Assembly: GCF_001292625.1 (NCBI RefSeq)
Contig: NZ_LAJH01000021.1
Span: forward strand, 186,001-250,000
DNA from: Shimia sp. SK013
Lineage (GTDB): Bacteria; Pseudomonadota; Alphaproteobacteria; Rhodobacterales; Rhodobacteraceae
Length of the DNA: 64,000 nucleotides
Direction: 5' to 3'
The notes beneath the pieces are model-generated. The model searched no databases. It was not told where the DNA came from and saw only the letters and a program-made list of their open reading frames with translations. Of the stretch, positions 7,735-18,968 are shown one piece after another (within the stretch, counting starts at the first letter, position 1; each line of letters opens with the position of its first letter). The translations under genes and the position numbers were made by a program.

Positions 7735-8544
7735 ATGACCCGGAATTCAGCGCGCGAGGCGGTGATCAAGGTGCGCGGATTGCGCAATCAATTTGGCCCT
7801 CAGGTGGTGCATGACAATCTGGATCTGGATGTCTGGCGCGGCGAAGTGTTGGGCATCGTTGGCGGATCGGGCACAGGCAAATCCGTTCTGTTGCGCACCA
7901 TCGTTGGATTGAACAAACCGGCGGCGGGCAGCATCGAGGTGCTGGGTGTCGACGTGTTGAACGCGCCCGTCGCGGAACGGCGGGAAGTCGAAACCCGCTG
8001 GGGTGTCGCGTTTCAGGACGGGGCCTTGTTTTCGTCTTTGACGGTGCTCAACAACGTCATGGCGCCGATGCGCGAGCATCTGAACCTCAGTCCCGCGTTG
8101 ATGCGCGCGTTGGGGGAGTTGAAAATCTCGTTGGTGGGCCTGCCCCCGCTGGCGTGTAGCAAGCTGCCGTCAGAGCTTTCGGGCGGCATGCGCAAACGTG
8201 CGGCGCTGGCCCGCGCCTTGGCACTGGACCCGCAGATCGTGTTTCTGGATGAACCAACGGCGGGGCTCGATCCCATTGGGGCCGCCGCCTATGACGATCT
8301 GATCGGAGAGTTGCAGCGCGCGCTGGGGCTGACGGTTTTCATGGTCACCCACGATCTGGACAGCCTTTATGCGATTTGTGACCGTATCGCGGTGCTTGCT
8401 GAAAAGCGGGTATTGGTGGATGGTCCCATTGAGGGGATGACCGAGGTGGATCATCCGTGGGTCAAAGAATACTTCACCGGTCCGCGTGCGCGCGCGGCGC
8501 AAGGCAAAGGTCAAAGCGAAGGCCAACGAGCGGGGACGACATAA
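7735..8544 (+). CDS. MlaF-family ABC transporter ATP-binding protein
   Basis: 269-residue cytoplasmic ATPase of the MCE transporter. Walker A is GGSGTGKS near residue 43, the signature is LSGGMRKRAALARAL, Walker B is IVFLDEPTAGLDP and the H-loop is MVTHD. The C-terminal tail after PWVKEYFTGPRARAAQ is short and charged, ending GKGQSEGQRAGTT. ATG 7735 lies two bases after the permease stop. The neighbours (MlaE-like permease before, MCE protein after) identify the system; the family normally assembles as two ATPases with two permeases and an MCE hexamer. Confidence 0.93.
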   Translation: MTRNSAREAVIKVRGLRNQFGPQVVHDNLDLDVWRGEVLGIVGGSGTGKSVLLRTIVGLNKPAAGSIEVLGVDVLNAPVAERREVETRWGVAFQDGALFSSLTVLNNVMAPMREHLNLSPALMRALGELKISLVGLPPLACSKLPSELSGGMRKRAALARALALDPQIVFLDEPTAGLDPIGAAAYDDLIGELQRALGLTVFMVTHDLDSLYAICDRIAVLAEKRVLVDGPIEGMTEVDHPWVKEYFTGPRARAAQGKGQSEGQRAGTT

Positions 8545-17685: not shown

Positions 17686-17699
17686 TTGATGTGAATCAA
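17686..17699. promoter_or_regulatory. FNR/FnrL-type box
   Basis: TTGAT-GTGA-ATCAA is a perfect match to the FNR consensus TTGAT-N4-ATCAA. Its centre is 41.5 bases before 17734, with a TATTCT hexamer at the matching -12 to -7 positions (17722-17727). This is the geometry of a class II FNR-activated promoter, so the gene at 17757 is probably induced under low oxygen. Confidence 0.8.
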
Positions 17700-17720
17700 G
17701 GTTCTCAAAAGCCGAAAAAC

Positions 17721-17740
17721 ATATTCTGTATTTAGAATAT
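17721..17740. promoter_or_regulatory. ATATTC-N8-GAATAT operator (SqrR/BigR-like) over the -10 element
   Basis: Perfect inverted repeat; with flanking bases the arms are CATATTCT/AGAATATG (17720-17741). It contains ATTC-N8-GAAT, the spacing I recall for persulfide-sensing ArsR-type repressors of the SqrR/BigR group. It covers the predicted -10 and transcription start, an ideal repression site. The regulator gene is not in the window. Confidence 0.6.
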
Positions 17741-17756
17741 GTATAGGAGCTTTGCC

Positions 17757-18968
17757 ATGTCACATCACCCCAACACACCGCGCGCGCCTTATTCGCCGCT
17801 CTACTTTCTTGCCACGCTCGGCGCCGGTGGCCTGATGGTCACGTTTTTCATGTATCTGATGTTCTGGGTGCCCCACCCGGGCCAGCCGGTTCCGATTTTT
17901 GAAGACATTCTTGCGGCCTTTCAAACCGGAGGTATCCCGCTAAAGGCCGCCATCATTGTTGCGGTCACAGGCATTGCGGGTTTGGCGTTTCTGATGATCC
18001 GCAGCCTGATCTGGAACCTGTCGCGCTTGTCGCAGTTCCGCAGGACCGACGCCTACACAGCCCTGCGCACATCCAACGCGGAAACACAGCTGATGGCCAT
18101 TCCGCTGGCGCTGGCAATGGTGGTGAACGGTGGTTTCATTATTGGTTTGGTGTTTGTACCCGGCCTTTGGGGTGTCGTTGAATTGCTGTTCCCGCTCGCA
18201 ATGATCGCATTCATCGCCATCGGCGCTTATGGCCTCATGATTATGCGCGACTTTTTCGGCCGCGTGATGGTCAAAGGCGGGTTTGATTGCGCCAAAAACA
18301 ACAGCTTTGCACAGGTGCTTCCGGCTTTTGCCTTTGCCATGGTGGGCGTGGGTCTTGCCGCCCCCGCCGCAATGAGCAGCCTGCCTGTGGTTGTCGGCCT
18401 GTCCTTTATCCTGTCGAGCTTCTTTATCGTTGTCGCGATCCTGTTGGCCTTTGCCAACGTGATCCTTGGTCTACGCTCGATGATGGAGCACGGTGCCACA
18501 GCCGAAAGCGCGCCAACGCTTCTGGTGATTGTGCCACTGATCACCGTGATCACCATCGCCTGGCTGCGGCAGAGCCACGGCATGCACGTGCATTTTGACG
18601 TGCACGGCGGCGCGGGCGCGACCTTCTCGATGCTGACAACCCTGCTGATGGTACAGCTTGCGGTGCTGGCTTTGGGTCTGACCGTTCTGCGCGGCTTCGG
18701 CTATGTCGGCACCTACATCACGGGTGACGCCAAATCTGCCGGATCATACGCGCTGGTCTGCCCCGGTGTGGCACTCTCGGTGATGCTGCACTTCTGGCTC
18801 AACAAAGGTCTGGTTGCGTCCGGTCTGGTCGACAAGTTCTCGCTGACTTATCTGGCGATTTCTGCGGTGGCGATTGGGTTGCAGGTCGCGATGATCTGGC
18901 TGGTGCTGAAGCTCAACGCCAAGCATATGGGCCGCGACGACTCCCATGTTGCGGTGCCTGCGGAGTAA
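17757..18968 (+). CDS. Polytopic membrane protein, possibly TsoY-like, under FNR and persulfide-type control
   Basis: 403 residues, about ten TM helices (for example FLATLGAGGLMVTFFMYLMF, PLALAMVVNGGFIIGLVFV, LPVVVGLSFILSSFFIVVAI). Conserved-looking polar positions include DCAKNNSFAQ and RQSHGMHVHFDVHGG, a His-rich loop. ATG 17757 is preceded by GGAGC; an upstream ATG at 17739 lies inside the operator. From memory, related roseobacter proteins are called TsoY family (seleno)protein; I could not verify this, and the fold also recalls TehA/SLAC-type channels. The overlapping FNR and ATTC-N8-GAAT sites argue for a role in anaerobic or sulfur metabolism. No in-frame TGA is present. Confidence 0.72.
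   Translation: MSHHPNTPRAPYSPLYFLATLGAGGLMVTFFMYLMFWVPHPGQPVPIFEDILAAFQTGGIPLKAAIIVAVTGIAGLAFLMIRSLIWNLSRLSQFRRTDAYTALRTSNAETQLMAIPLALAMVVNGGFIIGLVFVPGLWGVVELLFPLAMIAFIAIGAYGLMIMRDFFGRVMVKGGFDCAKNNSFAQVLPAFAFAMVGVGLAAPAAMSSLPVVVGLSFILSSFFIVVAILLAFANVILGLRSMMEHGATAESAPTLLVIVPLITVITIAWLRQSHGMHVHFDVHGGAGATFSMLTTLLMVQLAVLALGLTVLRGFGYVGTYITGDAKSAGSYALVCPGVALSVMLHFWLNKGLVASGLVDKFSLTYLAISAVAIGLQVAMIWLVLKLNAKHMGRDDSHVAVPAE

Follow-up and report, generated by a model that had tools for sequence, protein, structure and literature searches.

The window, by which we mean the whole stretch of 64,000 nucleotides analysed here (C21:186001-250000 of the 4.05 Mb host genome G000), carries a gene for a membrane protein of the TsoY family, directly preceded by a promoter region in which an FNR/FnrL box and a putative operator of the SqrR/BigR type stand in close succession (Table 1). 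Judged by TsoY, the closest named relative is Shimia sp. Alg240-R146 with 96% protein identity, which places the host in Shimia or very close to it.

Table 1. Features of the tsoY locus and the two candidate repressor genes of the host genome (positions in the window unless a contig is named)
Feature	Position	Strand	Remark
FNR/FnrL box TTGATGTGAATCAA	17686..17699	+	perfect TTGAT-N4-ATCAA, centre 17692.5
Candidate -35 AGGTTC	17699-17704		17 bp before the -10; poor match
Putative SqrR/BigR-type operator ACATATTC-N8-GAATATGT	17719..17742	no strand	spans the -10 and the inferred start
Palindrome ATATTCTGTATTTAGAATAT	17721-17740		sequence
-10 hexamer TATTCT	17722..17727	+	22 bp from the FNR box; part of the operator's left arm
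Predicted transcription start	17734	+	deduced from the -10 and a box centre at -41.5
Ribosome binding site AGGAG	17745..17749	+	sequence
tsoY, 403-aa TsoY-family membrane protein	17757..18968	+	starts with ATG; NF047644; predicted SLAC1/TehA fold
Cys335 codon TGC	18759..18761	+	conserved in 119/119 aligned orthologues
SqrR/BigR-type ArsR gene 1	C9:624612 region		inside the sox cluster
SqrR/BigR-type ArsR gene 2	C26:75100-75429		standing alone

An earlier note on this DNA had placed TTGAT-N4-ATCAA exactly 41.5 bases before a predicted start and ATATTC-N8-GAATAT over the -10 element and the start site. Both placements could be confirmed from the coordinates: with a start at position 17734, the centre of the FNR box falls at -41.5 and the operator covers -15 to +9, and the palindrome turned out to be even longer than noted, extending to ACATATTCT-N6-AGAATATGT with perfect arms of 9 bp. 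In class II FNR promoters, a TTGAT-N4-ATCAA box is centred at -41.5 and the -35 element is poor. The tsoY promoter has the same box, the same register and a poor -35, as expected where a promoter depends on an activator, and it differs from these promoters by the putative persulfide-sensor operator over the -10 and the start, an arrangement for which we predict an AND gate.

The class II geometry, deduced from one sequence, finds independent support in further tsoY promoters. From 46 FNR-bearing tsoY promoters, a set that adds 80 loci partly repeating already sampled genomes, 35 distinct ones were used. In 18 of these 35, a TAnnnT -10 follows the FNR box at a distance of 21–22 bp, the other spacings between 10 and 35 bp accounting for 0–4 cases each, and the distance from the FNR centre to the ATG amounts to 59–80 in 34 of the 35 promoters.

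Conservation of the two sites upstream of tsoY

For the comparison of promoters we took the region of 120 bp before each of 119 tsoY genes, 16 from Shimia (window included) and 103 from other genera, where the latter leave out the fragmentary or interrupted tsoY genes of G171, G239, G404 and G413 as well as the host genome, which is counted under its genus; likewise not included are the promoters of L363, L365 and L366, which encode TsoY relatives from outside the family. ATTC-N8-GAAT is found in 81 of the 119 promoters, with each other spacer from N3 to N13 yielding only 0–1, and TTGA-N6-TCAA in 26, with 0–2 for each other spacer from N2 to N10. The perfect TTGAT-N4-ATCAA is present in 12 of the 119. 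After mononucleotide shuffling, ATTC-N8-GAAT averaged 0.26 and the perfect FNR box 0.01.

Taken within the window alone, the sites are not striking: the FNR pattern at one mismatch has four matches with 2.1 expected, and the palindrome at two mismatches has three with 0.7 expected. The case against chance is made by the exactness, the position and the conservation of the sites. Genome-wide (4.05 Mb), there are nine perfect copies of the FNR box and 35 matches to ATTC-N8-GAAT; ACATATTC-N8-GAATATGT is found 13 times with up to three mismatches, the copy at tsoY being the sole perfect one, and TTGA-N6-TCAA followed after 8 to 38 bp by ATTC-N8-GAAT occurs once. A chance origin of the sites is rejected on the spacer controls, the shuffles, the uniqueness in the genome and the conservation, and the reading given in the earlier note is on the whole supported.

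The earlier note had also set conservation upstream of orthologues as a point on which its reading would stand or fall, and here the two sites part ways. The operator is conserved (81/119), the FNR box only lineage-wise: it is kept as TTGA-N6-TCAA in all eight genomes of the close Shimia clade (80–100% identity), occurs in none of the eight distant Shimia tsoY promoters (55–57% identity) and is found in 18 of the 103 promoters from other genera, being missing from the remaining 85. The FNR half of the tsoY promoter is lineage-specific, not general. In the close Shimia clade, the operator at the start is strict in six of eight promoters and one mismatch off in the other two; the eight distant Shimia genes mostly have a pair of operator-like sites separated by about 25 bp. 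Six of the eight close Shimia promoters (L027-L032) contain a further ATTC-N8-GAAT before the FNR box, at -79 to -81 relative to tsoY; the promoter of the window and that of its closest relative do not have it. Possibly, such a second SqrR-type site flanking the FNR box could serve in looping or in the exclusion of FnrL.

Among the other genera, a perfect operator without any FNR box is present in 57 of the 103 promoters (65 at up to one mismatch), from which we conclude that the operator is independent of the FNR promoter. Four designs can be distinguished in this wider set, namely a single operator over the start, two operators 23–26 bp apart, an FNR box with an operator, and others. The operator is absent at up to one mismatch from 26 of the 103 promoters, of which ten have neither site, six have the FNR box only and ten carry GTGAC-N3-GTCAC. 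These last ten (L133, L163, L165, L175, L177, L178, L180, L182, L185 and L189) contain the motif in perfect form in five cases and with one mismatch in five, the shuffle means being 0.01 and 0.29, respectively; in these promoters the usual pair seems to have given way to another regulator.

The site pair before other genes and its candidate regulators

Across 394 genomes of the family, sampled at nearly one per genus, there are 76 instances of TTGA-N6-TCAA followed within 8–38 bp by ATTC-N8-GAAT, spread over 64 genomes; the reversed pattern, a control that differs in base composition, occurs once in the same genomes. Eight of the 76 occurrences are tsoY by position. Thirty pair loci were taken, 25 were matched and seven had their genes named, five by profile search (L337, L341, L351, L356, L358) and two by reading alone (L333, L345). 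The pair precedes two SQR-like genes with profile scores under the curated cut-off (L337, L358), soxX (L356; TIGR04485 above cut-off) and a YeeE-type Sulf_transp gene (L351), and in the Shimia genome G007 it stands before a further SQR-like gene (L324).

About twelve of the pair occurrences (L341, L345 and some ten more) display a distinct 58-bp layout, in which the FNR box is followed by CATTCTA(G/A)AA..GAAT ahead of a gene for cytochrome oxidase subunit I (L341 is COX1 by Pfam, L345 the same by reading). The ATTC-N8-GAAT match, which is the right half of this oxidase layout, may merely be a conserved -10 that is unrelated to the operator. In the sox cluster of the host genome (C9, L054), which contains a SqrR/SoxR-type ArsR gene, ATTC-N8-GAAT is found at 8296 and 10600, just upstream of apparent soxB and soxX genes. 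The second-best copies of the 24-bp operator in the host genome (L042, C9:610690, and L043, C16:51356) precede a metallo-hydrolase gene, which matches lactonase models below cut-off, and a hydroxylase-like gene with an OlsE match, likewise below cut-off.

Both kinds of regulator that the promoter would call for are encoded in the genome. FnrL is recognised by NF045989 with 447 bits (cut-off 300, E 1e-134) and has its N-terminal cysteines clustered. Ten proteins match PF01022 (ArsR), two of which show the SqrR/BigR cysteine pair (Table 1); the gene on C26 adjoins no recognisable sulfur genes. For both proteins the closest solved chains are 6o8k-6o8o, with both cysteines aligning with those of that chain. 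These entries, for which the structure table gives the ArsR family only, we take to be R. capsulatus SqrR. In the C26 protein and its orthologues at 29 other loci, 30 of 30 in all, a pair of cysteines is separated by 66 residues. On the BigR equivalog NF040642 the two repressors score 105.6 and 96.4 bits, under the cut-off of 155 bits, and we therefore name them SqrR/BigR-type rather than BigR. Either of them could act at tsoY in the host genome.

A SqrR-like ArsR protein is encoded in 107 of 108 tsoY genomes and in 228 of 286 others (Fisher 5e-8), an association confounded by phylogeny. The sole tsoY genome without one (G321) has a tsoY promoter (L194) that is also without the operator. Among genomes with other-genus promoters, a close orthologue of the C26 protein, from a set of 85 genomes at at least 66% identity, is present in 33 of 37 with the tandem operator and in 11 of 66 with other designs (Fisher 3e-13, with phylogeny again confounding). 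Autoregulation of the sqrR orthologue was considered and dismissed, as ATTC-N8-GAAT occurs within 300 bp upstream in none of the 30 orthologous genes.

The palindrome might instead be bound by another ArsR-type or an unrelated repressor with a similar half-site, for instance a metal or peroxide sensor, in which case the signal would not be reactive sulfur. ArsR paralogues often have AT-rich operators in common, and the ten PF01022 matches of the genome together with the missing autoregulatory site (0/30) speak for such a repressor. We nevertheless regard this as quite improbable, since the tandem operator tracks the close SqrR orthologue (33/37 versus 11/66), the pair is found before SQR-like, soxX and sulfur-transport genes, the motif stands in two sox-cluster promoters of the host genome, and it is identical to the published site. 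The earlier note was right to give ATTC-N8-GAAT as the SqrR/BigR form, since PMC9774250 has ATTC-N8-GAAT as the deduced RcSqrR site.

If tsoY were a plain FnrL gene with a genuine FNR box, the operator would overlap the promoter only because the -10 region is AT-rich. In favour of this, the operator includes a -10 (TATTCN) as its left arm, and an FNR box without an operator (at up to one mismatch) is seen in six of the 103 promoters from other genera. This reading appears very improbable in view of the 57 other-genus promoters that carry a perfect operator without an FNR box, the 0–1 occurrences of each other spacer, and the additional operator copy that six of eight close Shimia promoters carry before the FNR box, at a distance from the -10. 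That the start lies elsewhere and FnrL represses, for example from an upstream promoter, is scarcely credible either: FNR sites can repress, yet the class II spacing is kept in 18 of 35 promoters and the FNR-centre-to-ATG distance stays at 59–80 in 34 of 35.

TsoY and the proposed mechanism

The gene product is a member of the TsoY family (NF047644, 506 bits, cut-off 150, E 5.2e-152) and matched no Pfam family at E 1. It is related to the selenoprotein model NF047643, though not that equivalog, with 42.8 bits at E 5e-11 and a cut-off of 250; position 335 is encoded by a cysteine codon, with no in-frame Sec codon there. Within the genus, tsoY is present in 16 of 25 genomes, and in the family in 108 of 394. 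An AlphaFold2 model built with 60 orthologues reached a pLDDT of 88 and a pTM of 0.87. The best Foldseek matches of the model are the anion channels TehA and SLAC1 (probability 1.00, E ~6e-3), and in VIA the best rows are all of TehA/SLAC1 type with Z 27-29 and rmsd 3.1-3.7 over about 300 residues, the next unrelated row standing at 14.4. Neither a single-sequence nor an alignment-profile search (the latter at E 10) against solved chains gave a match. A SLAC1/TehA fold is accordingly predicted from the model; kinship by sequence profile was sought and not found, the likeness appearing in the fold search only. Compared with TehA/SLAC1 (TDT family), TsoY shares the predicted fold and differs in its low identity (10–14%), the lack of a Pfam match and an invariant cysteine.

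This cysteine, Cys335, is conserved in all aligned orthologues and lies near the start of the helix 328–353, and 118 of 119 TsoY proteins contain a single CxxV motif. According to a review (PMC13188914), selenoprotein TsoY has UxxV as its Sec motif. CxxV at Cys335 would correspond to this motif, with cysteine in place of selenocysteine in a protein related to the selenoprotein by profile (NF047643, PMC13188914). Sec-type TsoY with NF047643 above cut-off was found in none of 398 genomes of the phylum, and the equation of Cys335 with Sec consequently draws on the printed UxxV and on the single CxxV in 118 of 119 proteins. The neighbourhood of tsoY was discarded as a clue to function: a same-strand gene lies within 80 bp downstream in just 24 of 104 loci, the gene mostly standing alone, and the recurrent neighbours read as housekeeping genes that do not hint at a function.

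We propose a model in which reduced [4Fe-4S] FnrL, active without oxygen, would bind the box at 17686-17699 and contact the polymerase from -41.5 in class II fashion, while an ArsR persulfide sensor of the SqrR/BigR/SoxR type would sit on 17719-17742 and exclude the polymerase from the -10 and the start. As described for SqrR (PMC9995734) and SoxR (PMC10451225) in the parts of these papers available, persulfides bridge the cysteines and the repressor lets go; here, persulfides or polysulfides would likewise bridge the two cysteines of the repressor and release it. With FnrL at -41.5 and the repressor over the start, an AND gate is predicted, in which transcription of tsoY would require both low oxygen and reactive sulfur. 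Since the FNR box is missing outside some lineages, this low-oxygen and reactive-sulfur reading is limited to the FNR-bearing lineage. TsoY, with its predicted SLAC1/TehA fold and near-invariant CxxV cysteine, would then move a sulfur anion across the membrane.

Taken as a whole, an FnrL-activated, persulfide-sensor-gated tsoY promoter with AND logic, with TsoY as the proposed mover of a sulfur anion, is in our judgement probable, given the sites, their spacing and conservation, both regulators, the family and the predicted fold. Counting against it are the 26 of 103 other-genus promoters without the operator, the 85 of 103 without the FNR box, the 0/30 autoregulatory sites of sqrR, the position of the C26 repressor gene away from recognisable sulfur genes, the scores of both repressors under the BigR cut-off and the confounding of the co-occurrence counts by phylogeny. 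The E. coli SqrR homologue YgaV also counts against it, as just 8 of its 142 target genes are common with FNR or ArcAB according to the available text of PMC9774250.

The SqrR-repressed sqr and rcc01557 promoters of R. capsulatus (PMC9995734, PMC9774250) are alike in the ATTC-N8-GAAT site, the two-cysteine ArsR sensor, the release by persulfide and the sulfur-related targets; in contrast, the target here is tsoY and a class II FNR box lies upstream, and the available text of these papers reports neither tsoY nor joint control by FnrL and SqrR. BigR of Xylella and Agrobacterium and SoxR/sHdrR of Hyphomicrobium (PMC5823870, PMC10451225, PMC12423496) are sulfane-sulfur repressors linked, as here, to low-oxygen metabolism, with other target genes and, in the text available, no in-register FNR box described. 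In the literature searched, SqrR and FnrL were not found treated together, the matches listed included no paper on the tsoY promoter, and TsoY was found only as a name in the selenoprotein table of PMC13188914, as far as that source was available. The parts are known; their combination and the link to TsoY look new within the literature searched.

From its regulation and its predicted anion-channel fold we propose that TsoY, as a channel or exporter, may transport a sulfur anion (sulfite, thiosulfate or (per)sulfide), which we hold to be a real possibility that falls clearly short of even. More doubtful still is a more specific idea, which we put forward tentatively: TsoY could be a thiol- or selenol-bearing sulfur-anion channel of SLAC1 fold, whose CxxV cysteine (Sec elsewhere) would react with the persulfide or sulfite carried, and the FnrL/SqrR AND gate would open sulfur export or import only when sulfide accumulates without oxygen to oxidise it. 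Should this thiol/selenol channel reading hold, the promoter would provide the entire TsoY (seleno)protein family with its first assigned function.

The sulfur operator recurs before tsoY in most related genera and, together with the FNR box in some lineages, links a widespread protein family to reactive sulfur under low oxygen, a first clue to its role that opens TsoY to functional tests in culturable bacteria, Shimia marina for example. One predicted design, FnrL activation gated by a SqrR-type repressor, recurs before SQR-like, soxX and sulfur-transport genes as well as tsoY; in marine bacteria it would tie the oxygen signal to the sulfide signal.
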